Shown: piece after piece, positions 3,996 to 61,188 of the stretch
How positions within the stretch are numbered: position 1 is the stretch's first letter
How the letters are laid out: each line of letters begins with the position of its first letter
Source: Pseudoclavibacter sp. Marseille-Q3772
Lineage (GTDB): Bacteria; Actinomycetota; Actinomycetes; Actinomycetales; Microbacteriaceae
DNA length: 64,000 bases
Direction: 5' to 3'
Assembly (NCBI RefSeq): GCF_916618895.1
Contig: NZ_OU745391.1
Span: 992,001-1,056,000, forward strand
Position numbers and translations under genes: made by a program
Notes under the pieces: model-generated
Databases searched by the model: none
What the model saw: the letters and a program-made list of their open reading frames with translations, nothing else
What the model was told of the DNA's origin: nothing

Positions 3996-4487
3996 ATGAT
4001 CCGCACGCAACGACTGACACTCACTCGCCCCGCCGAGCAGGACATCCCGGATGTGCTGCGCATCCACGGACCGGAAACCTATGCGCATATGCCGCACCTT
4101 GCGATGCGCACTCGCGCTGAGGCTGAAGAACTACTGCACTCGTGGCAGCAGCACTGGGATGCAGATGGTGTTGGTTATTACACGGTTCGTCACGGTGACG
4201 AGGTGATCGGGTTCACCGGGGTGCGGATTATCGAACAGCCCGGTCTCCGCGTGCTCAACCTGTACTACCGATTCGCGCCCTCCGCCCAGGGGAAGGGATT
4301 CGCGAGGGAATCGGCCGAAGCTGCCGTTGCGGCAGCACGCAACACGTATCCAGAGCTGCCGATCGTTGCCCGGATCGCACCACAGAACACGGCATCGGTC
4401 GCGCTGGCTGAGCGTCTCGGGATGGTGCAATCCGGCACGGATGGCGAGGATGTGTTGTTTGAGTTCCCGCCGAAAGTTCAGGTGTAG
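3996..4487 (+). CDS. GNAT-family N-acetyltransferase (RimJ/RimL-like)
   Basis: This 163-residue protein starts MIRTQRLTLTRPAEQDIPDV, the usual opening of the RimJ/RimL branch. The acetyl-CoA loop is SAQGKGFARESAEAA (about residues 97-111), followed by NTASVALAERLGM. Such proteins acetylate alpha-amino groups of ribosomal proteins or small amines; the substrate cannot be told here. It lies five bases after corA in the same direction, so the two are likely co-transcribed. Confidence 0.88.
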   Translation: MIRTQRLTLTRPAEQDIPDVLRIHGPETYAHMPHLAMRTRAEAEELLHSWQQHWDADGVGYYTVRHGDEVIGFTGVRIIEQPGLRVLNLYYRFAPSAQGKGFARESAEAAVAAARNTYPELPIVARIAPQNTASVALAERLGMVQSGTDGEDVLFEFPPKVQV

Positions 4488-4558
4488 GTACCTCACCGCG
4501 TCCTAAACGATGACCTCAGCGGCGCCGCCCCTAAGCGCTAACAACGACACTACTCATC

Positions 4559-49561: not shown

Positions 49562-49778
49562 ACTTTTCCGGTTGTTTGACATTGATGCCGTGCAGCTTCA
49601 GACCGATGCCATTCGGCTCCAGACCGATGGTGCCCCGCCCTGCCCGCTCCGTCTCCGCCCGGAGAAATGGCGAAAATACGGCTAAGCAACGCGCATATTC
49701 GTATGCCTACCCGTATTTTCGCCATTTATCCGCAACAGGCGCCGCTAGTCGCGCGCCGGTGCAGGAAATCTCTCAGAC
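49562..49778. other. Structured non-coding gap between metQ and the FAH-family gene
   Basis: 217 bases between convergent genes hold two direct repeats of CAGACCGATG (49599-49608 and 49620-49629) and a 17-bp perfect inverted repeat (49665-49681 and 49711-49727). No gene is supported here. A reading frame on the minus strand has no start context or family. Confidence 0.6.
49665..49727. repeat. 17-bp perfect inverted repeat with an inner TTCG hairpin
   Basis: Arms AAATGGCGAAAATACGG (49665-49681) and its complement (49711-49727) enclose 29 bases, in which GCATA (49693-49697) and TATGC (49702-49706) flank TTCG. The arms are AT-richer than the surroundings. It lacks a T-run on either strand, so a plain intrinsic terminator is unlikely; a small palindromic element is possible. 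Confidence 0.6.
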
Positions 49779-55554: not shown

Positions 55555-57021
55555 ATGTCCACGACAATCGCGGAGCTTCTGCGCGTACGAAAGTTCGGTC
55601 TACGCATCCGTCACGGCAGCGCCGCCGCCATGCAGCAGCGCCTCGACTGGGCGACCGTAAGTGAACTCGTTGACCCCTCCCCTTCGCTCACGGGTGACGA
55701 ACTCGTGCTTACCGCCGGCGTGCAATTGCGTTCCGCGCGAGCATGCCGCACTTACGTTTCCGCGGTGGCCCAAGCAGGATGTGCGGGGATCGGCTTCGGC
55801 ACCGGCGTCAGTCACGAGCACATTCCGCAGGCGTTATTGGATGCGGCCCTGGAGGCCGGCGTCGCGGTGCTGGAGGTGCCGCTACATATTTCCTTCGCCG
55901 ACATCACTCGATACATCGCCGAAACGAATGTCAGCGCCCGACTCGCTTCCTTGGAATCCCAATACCGTCGCCGCCACCACCTGGTGGAGTTGCTGCTCGG
56001 CGATGGCGGCCTAGATGCCATGCTGCAAGAACTCGGCCGACAATCGAATGCACACTACGCGGTTTCCATCAACGGTGAGCTCATTTCGGGCACGCTTGAA
56101 ATCGATGATGATCGTGTGACCGGATGGGATGCGCTCCCCATCGCGCTTGCCGACTCCAGTCAGGCGACACTGCACGCATCCCGCCCTCGCGATGACTCTG
56201 CGGTCAACACGGCCCGCTCGCTCGTCGGCCTGCACATTTCGCAGGAAGCCAGGCGGCTTTATACCGCTCGACACGAGGCCGGACGCGTTATTGAAGACCT
56301 CAACCGGGGCAAGCTCTCGCTCTCGGCAGCGGTCTCCCGACTCGAGAGTTACGGCCTGGATGCGGGCGGGCGGTATCGCACGCTCGTGGTCACCACGCAG
56401 GCATCGAGCCGGGACGAGCTCGGGCGGATTCTGATGCCATCGGGAATCGATGCTCCGCTGACCGCAATGGTGCACGGCAAACTCGTGGTGCTCGTACCGC
56501 CGGACGGCACCACCGGCCGGCTCAAGGCAGAGTCGATCAGTGCCGCATGCCGCGCGATTGGCCACACCACCCGCATTGGCATCGGCGGGGTCTACCCCGC
56601 CGCGGATGCGTTGCGCTGGGGGTGGTTGGAGGCAACGGATGCACTGACTCGGCTCAACGACGGTGATGAGATTGGTGAGGCGCCACCGCTGTCGATGGCC
56701 TCGCTTATCCTGAGTGCCGAAGGAGCACCGGTTGGTGAGCTTGCCGAACGCATCCTCTCCCCGATTGAGACGCTCGACGCAGACCAGGGCACTCGCTTAG
56801 TTGAGACCCTCGAGACCTGGATCACGCACTCCGGGGCTGTCGCCGAAGTGGCCACTGCACTGGGAACACACCGCAATACCGTGCGCTATCGAATCGCGCA
56901 GATTGCAACACTCACCGGCTTTGACCCGCGAGTCACCACCGATGTAGTGCAGCTCGCGCTAGCGTTGATGGCTCGCAAGCTGTCACCGGCGTTGCGATCC
57001 GCTAGTGAACGCAAGCGTTAG
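55555..57021 (+). CDS. PucR-family transcriptional regulator
   Basis: The 488-residue regulator starts MSTTIAELLRVRKFGLRIRH with the PucR N-terminal domain (~1-115, GCAGIGFGTGVSHEHIPQAL), a middle GGDEF-like domain and the C-terminal CdaR-type helix-turn-helix (LETWITHSGAVAEVATALGT, then HRNTVRYRIAQIATLTG). It is divergent from gabT, which similar regulators activate in actinobacteria. ATG 55555 has no good ribosome binding site. Its TAG stop (57019-57021) lies inside the duplicated ilvE end. Confidence 0.92.
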   Translation: MSTTIAELLRVRKFGLRIRHGSAAAMQQRLDWATVSELVDPSPSLTGDELVLTAGVQLRSARACRTYVSAVAQAGCAGIGFGTGVSHEHIPQALLDAALEAGVAVLEVPLHISFADITRYIAETNVSARLASLESQYRRRHHLVELLLGDGGLDAMLQELGRQSNAHYAVSINGELISGTLEIDDDRVTGWDALPIALADSSQATLHASRPRDDSAVNTARSLVGLHISQEARRLYTARHEAGRVIEDLNRGKLSLSAAVSRLESYGLDAGGRYRTLVVTTQASSRDELGRILMPSGIDAPLTAMVHGKLVVLVPPDGTTGRLKAESISAACRAIGHTTRIGIGGVYPAADALRWGWLEATDALTRLNDGDEIGEAPPLSMASLILSAEGAPVGELAERILSPIETLDADQGTRLVETLETWITHSGAVAEVATALGTHRNTVRYRIAQIATLTGFDPRVTTDVVQLALALMARKLSPALRSASERKR

Positions 57022-57186
57022 CGCACCGCGGTCAGCCGGCCGTGCCGGTCGGCGACGGTGCCGTTCTGGATACCGGTCAGTTCCTGCCGCAAGCGCATTG
57101 CGACGGAATGCTCATCGACCGGCGGGTTGGTGAGCTCGAACTCCTCCCCCTTGAGCACCCCAATCGGGGCGACGACCGCCGCGGTG
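57017..57186. repeat. Left copy of the 170-bp ilvE-end duplication
   Basis: These 170 bases match 60093-60262 with six substitutions, about 96.5% identity and no gaps. Identity begins and ends sharply at GTTAGCG and GCGGTG. It flanks the three-gene cassette together with the right copy. Confidence 0.95.
57018..57186 (-). pseudogene. ilvE: 3'-end fragment of ilvE
   Basis: The last 55 codons and stop of branched-chain aminotransferase are present in frame: VVAPIGVLKGEEFELTNPP, then VDEHSVAMRLRQELTGIQNG. The frame continues upstream into unrelated cassette sequence, so no functional enzyme is made. Of the six differences from the intact gene, five are synonymous and one changes Trp to Arg near the end (HGRLTAVR against HGWLTAVR). 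Its stop TAA (57018-57020) overlaps the pucR stop on the other strand, so this end looks like the ancestral junction. Confidence 0.9.
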
Positions 57187-57330
57187 GAACCACCTCCTAA
57201 CTTATGGCCGACTACGGATGCGTCACGCCCCGGGGTGAATCGGTCGTATCCGGAAACCAATCGAAAGTGTGACAGGTCCGATAGGCAACTCTTGTTAAGC
57301 TGTGGGTAAAAAGCTGCGCCGGAGGAGCTT
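57187..57330 (+). promoter_or_regulatory. Leader of the ESX-like cassette
   Basis: The 144 bases between the ilvE fragment and the first cassette gene carry the strong ribosome binding site GGAGGAG just ahead of ATG 57331. GTGACA and TGTTAA 18 bases apart are a weak promoter candidate. No similarity to either flank was seen. Confidence 0.35.
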
Positions 57331-57663
57331 ATGGAAACGCGGATCATTGACGGCGAATTTCGTACGGTGAGCCGTTTGTGCGACGACGTTGTTGAGGGCG
57401 TCGGCGAAAGCACCTCCATTCGCGATGTGCAGGATTTAGTGAGCGAGGGAATGCAAGGTGGCAAGGCAGGTAGCCTGTTTGCGCGGGTCGTGGACCACCT
57501 TGAAGATGCCCGCAACTCGATCATGACCGCGGCGGAGGCGATCTCCGATGCTTCATTCGCGGCAGAAACAGCGTTCCAGGCTGGTGACGAAGTGTCCGCA
57601 GAGCGCCTGAACGATATTCACCACGAACTCCTAACGGTTGATTACCGTTCGTTTAAGGGGTAG
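57331..57663 (+). CDS. Small helical protein, probable partner of the ESX-like hydrolase
   Basis: This 110-residue acidic, nearly all-helical protein (MQGGKAGSLFARVVDHLEDA, then NSIMTAAEAISDASFAAETA) has no Cys, Trp or signal peptide and no WXG motif. Its size, helical-hairpin look and position two bases ahead of the hydrolase gene fit a WXG100-like or DUF partner of type VII secretion substrates; this is inference. ATG 57331 follows GGAGG with five-base spacing. It sits in AT-richer DNA. Confidence 0.7.
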   Translation: METRIIDGEFRTVSRLCDDVVEGVGESTSIRDVQDLVSEGMQGGKAGSLFARVVDHLEDARNSIMTAAEAISDASFAAETAFQAGDEVSAERLNDIHHELLTVDYRSFKG

Positions 57664-57665
57664 TC

Positions 57666-59393
57666 GTGGCAATGGTTTCGTGGTCAGATGTGTGTGAGTG
57701 GCGGGCGGAACCGATCGACGCTGCCGAATATCGGATTGGGAGCGCCGAGGCAGCAATGCAAGCCAATGGAGAATTGCTCTACCGTGCGCGTGAGGCGCTT
57801 ACTGGTAGCGGGTTGACAGTAACTGCGGCGCAGAATGCGCTCGCTGAGGCCGCAGATGACACTGACTTCGTCGAAGCCCAGTTGACAGATCTATTGGTAG
57901 CGATGGGCACGGCATTGGGGCGGGTTTCAGAGATTGAACGCTGGGTGCAAGCCGCGCAGGACTACGCGTATGACGAATTGCTCTTGATTCATGAAACCGG
58001 TTCGGTGCATTTGTCGGAGCGGATGTGGGATCGAGCCCGGTCCGAGGCAACCGAAATGGAGGAGGCCTTGCCACCCAATTACGGGTCTTACAATTACGGG
58101 GGCGCAACGGGGAAAAGCCATCCGCCTAATGTGTCACCCGAGTCTACGCCGACCTATTGCCGAGCGGTACAGGCTAAGGAGCTGTTGACGGATGAGATCG
58201 CCCAGATTCTCGAGTTGGCTCAGGAAACCGATGAGGCACTCGCCCGGGCCTGTGAACTGATTTTGCAGGCACGGGCATCGACAGCCGCGACTGAAATTTC
58301 GGGGCGAGTGGTCAACCCAAACGAGTTCGCGAACCTGCTAGAGCAGATGTCATCAGCCAGTCAGGTACGGTCACTGTGGAGCAGTCTTTCTCCGCAAGAA
58401 CAGCAGGCAATCAAGCACGCCTATCCCGCAGTCGTTGCTGAAACCAACGGGATTCCGTTCGTTGATCGCCGGGACGTAAATGCCCGTTTGGCGCAAGCGC
58501 GCCTCGAGGATATTCAGAATGAGATCGACTCGATTGAGGAGCAACTTGCGAAAGGCGACAGGGAATTACGTGAGAACTTAAATGACCCTTTCGTTTCGGA
58601 ACATGAAAAATGGTCCCGACCAGGCGAATTGGGTGAGCTCAAAACGAAGCAGGATCGACTCCTGCAAGAGCAGCGCTATATCACCGATGTGCTCAACGAT
58701 CCCGCGCGGGGATTTTTATTATTCGACGCAGAACATAATCGGATCATTGAACAGAACGGGTATCTTACGCCGAATACGGATGAGGTGTACACGCATGTTC
58801 CAGGCACGACGGTCTCGCCCGAGTCGTTCTATGACGGCTCCGCATCTGCATTCGCCCGGCGAGTTTTCAGTGAAGGCAAAGTGGACGGCACCGATTTTGC
58901 GACATTCACGTATATGGATGGTGGTTACGAAGGAATGGGTGACAGCATTCGCTGGGGGTATGGCGAGCGCGGGAATGCGAACGAGTCGTTCTTGCTGGCC
59001 GAAGGAAAAGAGTTGAAGGAATTCCAGGATGCGGTCACGCTTGACGCAATGGCCGTCGGCGCCGACGTGAATATTGGCGGCCACAGTGCGGGGATGAGCC
59101 TCATTTTCGCGTCAGAAACTCACGGGGCCCGTTACGATCAAGTTCACTCTCTGTCAGGATCGTTCGCCCCTGGATCAGATTGGCATCCGTCATTGGCAAC
59201 AGAATACGATCACTACTACTACAGCCCCGAGCCACTAAATGCGTTGGAACGCAGTCCATTCAAGGACCCGAGTTTCGAGAGACACGCCTATGAGGGTGGC
59301 GACCCAATGGATAATCACGGCCGCACGAACTCCGGCAACGACGACAACTACGATCTCATCGTAGATTTCATCGCTGAGTCCCGCGGTGATTAA
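57666..59393 (+). CDS. ESX-substrate-like protein with alpha/beta-hydrolase core (DUF1023-like)
   Basis: The 575-residue protein starts MVSWSDVCEWRAEPIDAAEY after GTG-Met-Ala, like actinobacterial proteins whose N-terminal helical hairpin is linked to type VII secretion. Residues ~235-300 (SSLSPQEQQAIKHAYPAVVA, then NGIPFVDRRDVNARLAQARL) match the linker typical of these hydrolases, followed by a coiled coil. The C-terminal third has the nucleophile elbow GHSAG with Ser474 and His551 (MDNHGRTN) as candidate partner; the acid is uncertain. A secreted lipase or esterase toxin is plausible. Confidence 0.75.
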   Translation: MAMVSWSDVCEWRAEPIDAAEYRIGSAEAAMQANGELLYRAREALTGSGLTVTAAQNALAEAADDTDFVEAQLTDLLVAMGTALGRVSEIERWVQAAQDYAYDELLLIHETGSVHLSERMWDRARSEATEMEEALPPNYGSYNYGGATGKSHPPNVSPESTPTYCRAVQAKELLTDEIAQILELAQETDEALARACELILQARASTAATEISGRVVNPNEFANLLEQMSSASQVRSLWSSLSPQEQQAIKHAYPAVVAETNGIPFVDRRDVNARLAQARLEDIQNEIDSIEEQLAKGDRELRENLNDPFVSEHEKWSRPGELGELKTKQDRLLQEQRYITDVLNDPARGFLLFDAEHNRIIEQNGYLTPNTDEVYTHVPGTTVSPESFYDGSASAFARRVFSEGKVDGTDFATFTYMDGGYEGMGDSIRWGYGERGNANESFLLAEGKELKEFQDAVTLDAMAVGADVNIGGHSAGMSLIFASETHGARYDQVHSLSGSFAPGSDWHPSLATEYDHYYYSPEPLNALERSPFKDPSFERHAYEGGDPMDNHGRTNSGNDDNYDLIVDFIAESRGD

Positions 59394-59407
59394 TCGGAGT
59401 GGTCGTT

Positions 59408-59944
59408 GTGCGCCGCCTGTGCTCGTTATTGATTGCCGTTCTCTTTTCCGTCTCGATGTCGGCCTGCTCGCCAGGAGAATCGCCACCAGTGGATACGCTG
59501 TCAGAAATCACCACGATCGAGGAAGCTAAGCGGGAGAGCTTACGCATCATGCGCGAGCTCGTGGGGATGGCTGACGGGTTGGCGATTTCACCAGCTGAGG
59601 ATCAGCCAGAATCGATCGAGACTCAAAAGCTGGTGCTTGCACCATGTCGCGATGGTGGGTATCAGTACCCGGGTATCACTGCAGTGGTGTTTGCCGACGA
59701 TGCGAGCGTGTTGGAATTCGAGGAGAGAATTCTCTCGCATTTCCGGAGTTCATCTGCCTGGGAAGAACGACGCCGAACCCGCCCCTCAGGCGAAGTCGTT
59801 ATCACGTTCAATGGCACGAATGGCTTCACCGTGGGCACGGTCACTCATACGGACGCGAACAACAAACGCGTGGTCATCCGTGCGTACAGCCCGTGTGTGG
59901 AATTACCGGAAGATTTCCCAAACCACGGTGGCTACACCTACTGA
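59408..59944 (+). CDS. Lipoprotein of the ESX-like cassette (candidate immunity protein)
   Basis: The 178-residue protein begins MRRLCSLLIAVLFSVSMSAC with lipobox MSAC and would be anchored on the outer face of the membrane. Conserved-looking cysteines are in LAPCRDGGYQYPG and SPCVELPEDF. No family was recognised. GTG 59408 has GGAG eight bases before it; GTG 59399 is possible. It follows the hydrolase by 14 bases. An immunity role against a secreted enzyme is inference from position and location. Confidence 0.65.
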   Translation: MRRLCSLLIAVLFSVSMSACSPGESPPVDTLSEITTIEEAKRESLRIMRELVGMADGLAISPAEDQPESIETQKLVLAPCRDGGYQYPGITAVVFADDASVLEFEERILSHFRSSSAWEERRRTRPSGEVVITFNGTNGFTVGTVTHTDANNKRVVIRAYSPCVELPEDFPNHGGYTY

Positions 59945-60080
59945 TCCCAATATCTTCCTCGACACGAAGCAGGCGCGGCACATCGCGCTCACGTCCGGCA
60001 GGCATGGCTCGCCATGACTGCGACAAATCCGCGGGCAGCCGCCCATCTCGGATGGAGCTAATGCTTAAACCGCCGCGCGC

Positions 60081-60097
60081 CTAACAGGCACTGTTAG
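60081..60097. repeat. 17-base palindrome at the right ilvE junction
   Basis: CTAACAG (60081-60087) and CTGTTAG (60091-60097) flank GCA and include the ilvE stop. It lies across the edge of the duplicated segment, which starts at 60093. It may be a terminator stem or mark the recombination point. Confidence 0.45.
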
Positions 60098-60262
60098 CGA
60101 ACCGCGGTCAGCCAGCCGTGCCGGTCGGCGACGGTACCGTTCTGGATACCGGTCAGTTCCTGTCGCAAGCGCATTGCGACGGAATGCTCATCGACCGGCG
60201 GGTTGGTGAGCTCGAACTCCTCACCCTTGAGCACCCCAATCGGAGCGACGACCGCCGCGGTG
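60093..60262. repeat. Right copy of the 170-bp ilvE-end duplication
   Basis: This copy is the genuine 3' end of ilvE and matches 57017-57186 with six substitutions. Between the copies are 2,906 bases carrying three foreign-looking genes. Confidence 0.95.
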
Positions 60263-61188
60263 CCCACAGCGAATGCTTCAACGATCTCGCCCGACTCGGT
60301 GCCAGCGCGCCACTCGTCGATCGTGACCGGGCGACGCTCAACCCGCATCCCCGCATCCTGTGCCAGTTCAAGGAGTGACTTATTGGTGATCGAATCGAGA
60401 ATCGAATCGGACTTCGGCGTGACGATGGTGCCATCCCGGAACGCAAACACGATGTTCATACCACCGAGCTCTTCGATGTACTTCCCCTCACAGGAGTCGA
60501 GGAAGAGCACCTGCTCGCAGCCGTTCGCATAAGCAGTCTCCTGCGGTAGCAGCGAGGCAGCGTAGTTACCACCACACTTGGCAGCACCGGTACCGCCCTT
60601 GCCGGCACGGGCGAGCTCGGCTTCGAGCCAGATATTGACCGGCTGAGTCGGGTCAGCAAAATACGAACCGGCGGGGCAGGCAATAACCATGTATGTCACT
60701 CGCTGGGCCGCGCGCACACCGAGGAAGTCCTCGTTCGCAATCATGAATGGCCGCAGGTACAGTGACTTGTCTTCGCCGTGCGGCGGCACCCACGCTTCGT
60801 CAATGGCAACCAGTTGTCGCAGCGACTCGATGAACAGTTCGGTTGGCAGCTCGGGCAGAGCGAGTCGGCGGGCGGATGCTTGCAATCGGGCAGCGTTTTG
60901 GTCGGGTCGGAAGATGTGGGTGGATCCGTCAGCGTGCCGGTACGCCTTAATGCCCTCGAATATTTCCTGCCCGTAGTGCAGCACGGCGTTCGCGGGGTTG
61001 AGCGATAACGGGCCATAGGGCACGACGCGCGCATCGTGCCAGCCTGCTTCGCGAGTCCAATCGATCATGACCATGTGATCGGTCATGTAGTTACCGAACC
61101 CGGGGTTTGCGTGCGCGGTCGCGATTGCCTCCGCATCGGCCGCCTGCGGATTCTTAGTGACGTGAAACGTGATGTTTTCGCTGGTCAT
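60094..61188 (-). CDS. ilvE: Branched-chain amino acid aminotransferase
   Basis: The 364-residue fold-type-IV enzyme makes Leu, Ile and Val from their 2-oxo acids. The PLP lysine Lys204 is in AAKCGGNYAAS, with FEGIKAYRHADGSTHIFRPD early and EELGGMNIVFAF later. ATG 61188 begins MTSENITFHV. It follows leuB by 37 bases in the same direction. Its last 55 codons are duplicated 3.1 kb to the left, so part of its 3' end may have come with the cassette. Confidence 0.97.
   Translation of the reverse strand: MTSENITFHVTKNPQAADAEAIATAHANPGFGNYMTDHMVMIDWTREAGWHDARVVPYGPLSLNPANAVLHYGQEIFEGIKAYRHADGSTHIFRPDQNAARLQASARRLALPELPTELFIESLRQLVAIDEAWVPPHGEDKSLYLRPFMIANEDFLGVRAAQRVTYMVIACPAGSYFADPTQPVNIWLEAELARAGKGGTGAAKCGGNYAASLLPQETAYANGCEQVLFLDSCEGKYIEELGGMNIVFAFRDGTIVTPKSDSILDSITNKSLLELAQDAGMRVERRPVTIDEWRAGTESGEIVEAFAVGTAAVVAPIGVLKGEEFELTNPPVDEHSVAMRLRQELTGIQNGTVADRHGWLTAVR

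Follow-up and report, generated by a model that had tools for sequence, protein, structure and literature searches.

How did a cassette of three genes come to stand between pucR and ilvE, and why does the 3' end of ilvE occur on both sides of it? These questions are raised by a stretch of 64,000 nucleotides (nt) from the genome of Pseudoclavibacter sp. Marseille-Q3772 (contig NZ_OU745391.1, positions 992,001 to 1,056,000), the whole of which is called the window here and whose own numbering is used throughout. The explanation that we favour, with modest confidence, is that the pucR-ilvE junction acquired a polymorphic ESX effector-immunity cassette through recombination for which the 3' end of ilvE served as the anchor. 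To examine it, the genome under study (G000) was set beside 10 sister genomes, which together make a genus set of 11, and the loci compared are cited by L-numbers where they need to be told apart.

The repeated end of ilvE

The last 170 nt of ilvE occur twice in direct orientation, at 57017-57186 and at 60093-60262, and the two copies align without a gap and are identical at 164 of 170 positions (96.5%). They lie 3,076 nt apart from start to start and enclose a spacer of 2,906 nt (57187-60092); an earlier preliminary description of the window had given the same repeat length, identity, and spacer length. The pair scores 280 bits in blastn, and none of the direct matches that bracket 57 control genes exceeds 77 bits, so that chance can be set aside; the control genes were drawn from the window (its first 48 kb), from nine further stretches of the same genome, and from nine stretches of genus genomes other than G006. 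Searches of the single-contig genome (2,009,013 bp) with positions 57000-57400 and with the IlvE protein both returned these two places and no third copy.

The right copy is the real 3' end of an intact ilvE (60094-61188, minus strand), which encodes a branched-chain amino acid aminotransferase (NCBIfam PRK13357, E 1.3e-150) with 84% protein identity to that of sister genome G001. The left copy, also on the minus strand, holds the stop and about 55 codons of a truncated ilvE, and its stop codon (57018-57020) overlaps that of pucR (57019-57021), in agreement with the preliminary description. The pucR-type regulator itself (55558-57021, plus strand; Pfam PucR and HTH_30) is the old neighbour of ilvE and adjoins it in all 10 sister genomes. 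The homology with ilvE lies on one side of the cassette and ends in an abrupt joint at 57186/57187.

The junction without the cassette is preserved among the sisters, where such junctions had been predicted: gabT, pucR, ilvE, and leuB follow one another in the same order in 10 of 10 genomes, with no match to any of the three cassette genes between pucR and ilvE. About 90 bp separate the two genes in G001, while in G006 the gap holds an open reading frame (ORF) of 139 residues, and a related cassette lies between pucR and gabT. The foreign look ascribed to the cassette is likewise borne out by base composition, in that its second gene, ORF2, has the lowest G+C content at third codon positions (0.609) of the 37 window ORFs of at least 250 residues (mean 0.707, standard deviation 0.036), although four of 76 ORFs sampled in nine stretches elsewhere in the same genome also fall below 0.62. 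A recent copy of another cassette of the same genome was considered as a source and rejected, as the nearest relatives of ORF2, found in G000 and G001, are 46% identical to it at the protein level (55% to each other) and the longest DNA match to another of the loci compared measures 181 nt at 71%. Each of these relatives is preceded by a gene that we take, from its sequence, to be glgX-like.

At all six positions where the copies differ (57024, 57038, 57060, 57087, 57147, and 57168 in the coordinates of the left copy), the plus strand has G or C in the left copy and A or T in the right. In the frame of ilvE five of these differences are synonymous, as had been reported, and the sixth sets Arg (CGG) in the left copy against Trp (TGG) in the right. 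Because this one amino-acid change replaces a Trp kept in the IlvE proteins of all 11 genus genomes, the left copy is, on this alignment, a decaying relic. The lost Trp is also what would be expected of a second account, in which the end of ilvE was duplicated in situ, within the lineage, when the cassette arrived (for example by replication-based template switching) and then drifted with only the right copy constrained, an account that we hold to be possible but doubtful.

A tree of the last 55 codons of ilvE, built from the two copies and the 10 sister genomes, none of them of the same species, places the copies as sisters at 100/99 on a long shared branch, apart from all 10 sisters. This placement agrees with duplication in situ, and any donor of the cassette would therefore have belonged to the same or a very close species. 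The preliminary description had proposed import from a related genome and had looked to such trees for a grouping of the copies within the lineage, which would speak for a tandem duplicate; the grouping is seen, and, in a tree that holds no genome of the same species, it decides nothing, just as it does not demonstrate the import. Regarding the substitutions, at least five synonymous changes out of six exceed what a free relic would be expected to show (P = 0.011 if both copies are neutral), whereas at most one nonsynonymous change out of six has P = 0.078 under duplication in situ if constraint then acted on the right copy alone. Coding selection on both copies as they diverged thus keeps weak support against full neutrality, with the second value and the lost Trp of the left copy on the other side.

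Two points here count against a gain from elsewhere, namely the P of 0.078 and the fact that no donor of the cassette was found among the genomes compared. An attempt to polarise the five synonymous changes with the sisters failed, at most 108 of 165 bases being common to any of them, and the left copy, which to the preliminary description looked like the original junction, may or may not be the older one, since about 90 bp lie between pucR and ilvE in G001 and a crossover inside the repeat would make both copies chimeric. On balance we lean towards import from another strain over duplication in situ, a preference that the data do not settle.

Under import, the incoming DNA, from the same or a very close species, would have carried the cassette next to a 3' end of ilvE and would have recombined with the resident gene through the homology shared at that end. 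The route may have been either a single crossover with a closed circle or homology-facilitated illegitimate recombination, and the outcome would be the arrangement described above, in which ilvE is whole and adjoins the cassette and pucR has the truncated 3' end next to it.

The cassette genes, their family, and the ESX machinery

All three genes of the cassette are on the plus strand. ORF1 (57331-57663; 110 residues) is a putative small partner, EspC-like, its match to EspC (PF10824) reaching 20.4 bits and thus lying under the cut-off of 23.5, and it is 14-39% identical to the other partners in an alignment of eight. ORF2 (57666-59393; 575 residues) resembles, in an alignment of 13 members and in profile comparison, an effector of the type VII secretion system (T7SS), in which the N-terminal family domain comes first and is followed by a hydrolase-like domain with a GHSAG motif at residues 472-476. 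Its relatives in this alignment are 23-46% identical, and all 13 members keep Ser474, His551, Trp6, and Trp12. ORF3 (59399-59944; 181 residues) is a lipoprotein and a putative immunity protein; among 14 aligned lipoproteins the lipobox Cys23 is nearly invariant and an SPC motif is invariant. Of the 13 aligned members, 12 have a lipoprotein gene of this family downstream of the effector and on its strand, and in the thirteenth it is on the opposite strand. In its own genome ORF2 matches eight stretches, which correspond to seven genes with ORF2 included, and the lipoprotein profile matches 16 stretches.

On either side of these genes, the left edge with the leader (57187-57330) and the non-coding right edge (59945-60092) match none of the other loci compared, and no edge DNA common to other cassettes was found among them. 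A scan of 57000-60300 gave no promoter-like site and four terminator-like sites, against 2.5 in shuffled sequences.

The kind of system to which the cassette belongs is suggested by the C-termini of eight further effectors, found by similarity to the ORF2 family, three of which carry Endonuclea_NS_2 and five Abhydrolase_8 (PF06259). Because a constant N-terminal domain is joined to toxin domains that are exchanged, the family has the pattern of polymorphic toxins, and the cassette fits that of a polymorphic type VII (ESX) effector-immunity system, in which export, toxicity, and immunity are predicted from sequence. ORF1 and the N-terminal domain of ORF2 would form the ESX export signal, the C-terminal domain, a putative serine hydrolase, would attack lipids or another envelope ester of rival bacteria, and the lipoprotein ORF3 would protect the producer at the cell surface. 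In line with the assignment of ORF2, hhalign aligns its family with an Abhydrolase_8 member of the genus (locus L107; the same gene is found in L120) over 406 columns that extend to the GHSxG motif, with a probability of 99.8%. The Abhydrolase_8 effectors of the genus share with ORF2 a related N-terminal domain and this motif, and differ from it in that ORF2 itself has no match to PF06259.

Certain searches speak against the hydrolase assignment: ORF2 matched none of the Pfam families, Abhydrolase_8 included, at E values up to 1, and the best match in a search of solved structures (E 0.051) was unconvincing and not a hydrolase. NCBIfam gave no convincing match either. As to an N-terminal domain of the WXG/LXG-like helical kind, WXG100 was matched weakly by three of the 13 family members (best E 0.0021) and not by ORF2, and Trp6 and Trp12 are the invariant residues there. 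The cassette might also serve a role other than that of an antibacterial toxin module, such as host interaction or envelope maintenance, since its toxin activity is a prediction and ORF3 is called an immunity protein from its position and copy number alone. Such a role would bear on the function of the cassette and not on its origin, and we consider it unlikely, because the exchange of nuclease for hydrolase domains inside a family, together with many lipoprotein genes (the 16 stretches given above), is typical of effector-immunity systems. That such systems hold many immunity genes also appears in a paper on Vibrio cholerae (PMC5361080).

Among 398 genomes of the bacterial family, 44 have a match at an E value of 1e-15 or better, and most of the matches outside the genus cover the C-terminal part only. 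A scan of genome contigs with a profile of the family (alignment A4) returned one locus, on NZ_BCSP01000002.1 of [Zimmermannella] bifida NBRC 103089, while ORF2 alone gave no match in the same contigs. We take this species to be the present Gulosibacter bifidus, which the taxonomy lists in Gulosibacter, Microbacteriaceae, with no synonym displayed. Plasmids, phages, and viral contigs, searched by tblastn with ORF2 and, for the viral contigs, with A4, gave no match to the cassette.

Within the genus, the effectors occur with the machinery that would export them. Effector matches are found in four of the 11 genomes (G000, G001, G004, and G006), and the same four hold the lipoprotein family as well as EccB and EccC above the cut-offs, whereas the other seven have no match to EccB and only sub-cut-off matches to EccC (Fisher P = 0.003 for EccB and effectors over the 11 genomes). 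At L131:9473-12022 of the genome under study a single ORF of 850 residues holds EccB and a subtilase (S8) domain and looks like a fusion of EccB with the ESX protease, and an EccD-like protein lies together with it.

Repeats around other cassettes

To see whether such duplications are peculiar to the ilvE locus, the bracketing repeats of the genus were counted. A near-identical direct repeat was defined by at least 95% identity over at least 25 nt, within flanks of 5 kb in the genus and of 6 kb outside it. The genus test took in 23 effector ORFs from four genomes, two ORFs below 1,000 bp (L115 and L121) being left out. Four of the 23 effectors are bracketed by such repeats, compared with none of the 57 controls (Fisher P = 0.0056, or 0.019 with the index case removed), one of which has a bracketing repeat at 77% identity.

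Besides the 170 nt of the ilvE end, the repeats are one of 45 nt in the genome under study (L071), from the end of a 145-residue gene behind a nuclease effector; one of 37 nt in G006 (L080), from the end of recR, with its second copy next to lysC; and one of 27 nt in G006 (L066), from the intergenic region of pucR and gabT. In three of the four cases (ilvE, recR, and L071) a full gene stands beside the cassette and its truncated 3' end on the far side, an arrangement to be expected after a single crossover with a circle or after homology-facilitated illegitimate recombination. G001 lacks the L071 cassette, and pucR and gabT are adjacent with no cassette between them in the genomes examined other than G006. 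For the repeats of L071, L080, and L066, a search of the 225 sequences compared found no further exact copy.

Some of these loci show further traces. At L071:7310-9933 a nuclease-type effector of 485 residues with a partner of 208 residues has no full immunity gene directly behind it, where only the 45-nt end copy is found of the 145-residue gene that follows the preceding nuclease effector. L066 contains a decayed second copy, with frame breaks, of about the first 180 bases of pucR, and next to the cassette in the pucR/gabT junction is a direct repeat of 901 nt at 83% (L066:9535-11351), which holds the decayed 5' end of pucR and a lipoprotein gene. The side of pucR on which a cassette lies differs between two species. 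At L078 both effectors have weaker direct repeats around them (90% and 79%). A repeat of 81 nt at 94% in L073 of the genome under study (774-854 and 4433-4513) lies away from the effector and is perhaps a pair of like tRNA genes.

Genomic islands that integrate in gene ends leave a full gene beside the element and the displaced 3' end on its far side. Three of the four cassettes have this arrangement too, and it agrees with a third account, site-specific integration, in which a satellite element, served by a recombinase in trans, carries a replacement 3' end of its target and the repeats are the attachment sites attL and attR. This we judge quite unlikely, as the repeats differ in length (27, 37, 45, and 170 nt) and in target and have no common motif, the words that the four share being no longer than in shuffled sequences. 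Moreover, a search of the three cassette ORFs, pucR, ilvE, and 10 further neighbouring ORFs found no recombinase, the rest of the genome lying outside it.

Recombination anchored on gene ends has its own difficulties in the wider counts. Within the genus, 19 of the 23 effectors have no near-identical bracketing repeat. Outside it, where 40 of 45 loci were considered with the first ORF of each only, none of the 40 effectors and none of 28 controls has one; weaker direct matches reach 429 nt at 74% around effectors, and those around controls reach 69 bits (50 nt at 90%). Given the 19 of 23 and the 40 of 40 effectors that lack near-identical repeats, the gene-end scar is not a general feature, and the bracketing pattern is not claimed for the wider family.

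A last difficulty comes from the interval between recR and lysC (loci L140, L142, L133, and L080), which measures at most about 300 bp in seven of the 11 genomes and is longer in exactly the four that have the ESX machinery (G000, about 1.3 kb; G001, 1.4 kb; G004, 3.6 kb; G006, 4.4 kb). The genes found there in the first two are not effectors, and in G000 an ORF of 292 residues, which is no effector and lay outside the control sample, stands between two palindromic repeats of 74 nt that are 97% identical. Because of this interloper, near-identical bracketing repeats are not limited to effectors, even though its repeat is of a different, dispersed kind, with further copies at 72-78% around the genome. 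One of these, a diverged copy at 72% that also gave a self-complementary match, lies in the window itself (49660-49733, or 1041660-1041733 of the contig).

A broader form of the favoured explanation would make the ESX cassettes of the genus carriers of a captured end of a conserved gene, which would serve them as a homing arm for homologous recombination into housekeeping loci, repeatedly and with no recombinase of their own, leaving the target gene intact and the direct repeat as an exit route. We put this forward tentatively, as a speculation that may well prove wrong.

Parallels in known secretion systems

Each part of the cassette is of a known kind; what is new is that gene-end scars recur around ESX cassettes. 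In the type VI secretion system (T6SS) modules of V. cholerae (Kirchberger 2017, PMC5361080), gain likewise proceeds with no evident integrase and old 3' parts end up behind the incoming module; the process is proposed there to resemble homology-facilitated illegitimate recombination, and immunity arrays build up. The present case differs in that the secretion system is ESX/T7SS and the host an actinobacterium, that housekeeping genes (ilvE and recR) supply two of the displaced ends, and that a direct duplication remains. In Pseudomonas aeruginosa an effector gene of the T6SS is reported to be gained by homology-facilitated illegitimate recombination at a fixed locus, but swapping is anchored in vgrG, and not in an unrelated metabolic gene as in our case (PMC11751169).

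Among type VII systems, TslA-TilA-TlaA of Staphylococcus aureus combines a lipase toxin, small helical partners, and an immunity lipoprotein with tandem paralogues (PMC10730906), a set that the predicted roles of the present cassette resemble. In TslA, as that paper describes it, the lipase domain is N-terminal and an LXG-like domain C-terminal, and ORF2 has the reverse order. The T7SS immunity genes esaG and tipC gain and lose copies through homologous recombination between short blocks, which recalls the present case, with the difference that the recombination described there is between paralogues, while here the homology is the end of a housekeeping gene (PMC9484751). Literature searches did not find Gulosibacter paired with type VII secretion, and where type VII secretion was searched for together with direct repeats and sites of insertion, no such case stood in the titles or the starts of abstracts of the best matches listed.

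To our knowledge, the spread of antibacterial toxin modules that have no mobility gene has been little studied for actinobacterial type VII systems. The fresh scars at ilvE, recR, and pucR/gabT are insertion events with cassette-free sister junctions, and they make the route of homologous recombination testable. In addition, we suggest that effector cassettes of recent origin could be flagged by looking for housekeeping genes that are partly duplicated.

Finally, the lipoprotein genes of the genus are found in further arrangements. At L074:8069-12387 in the genome under study six lipoprotein genes stand in a row behind an effector, with an almost identical WSPCFIPEGGTLPPGRK tail on each of the first five. 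Elsewhere, inverted copies of lipoprotein-gene DNA flank an effector, both in the genome under study (L075:6079-9634; 221 nt at 94.6% and 171 nt at 95.3%) and in G001 (L078:11305-14812; 478 nt at 95.0%), and the toxin units that lie between these copies could invert.

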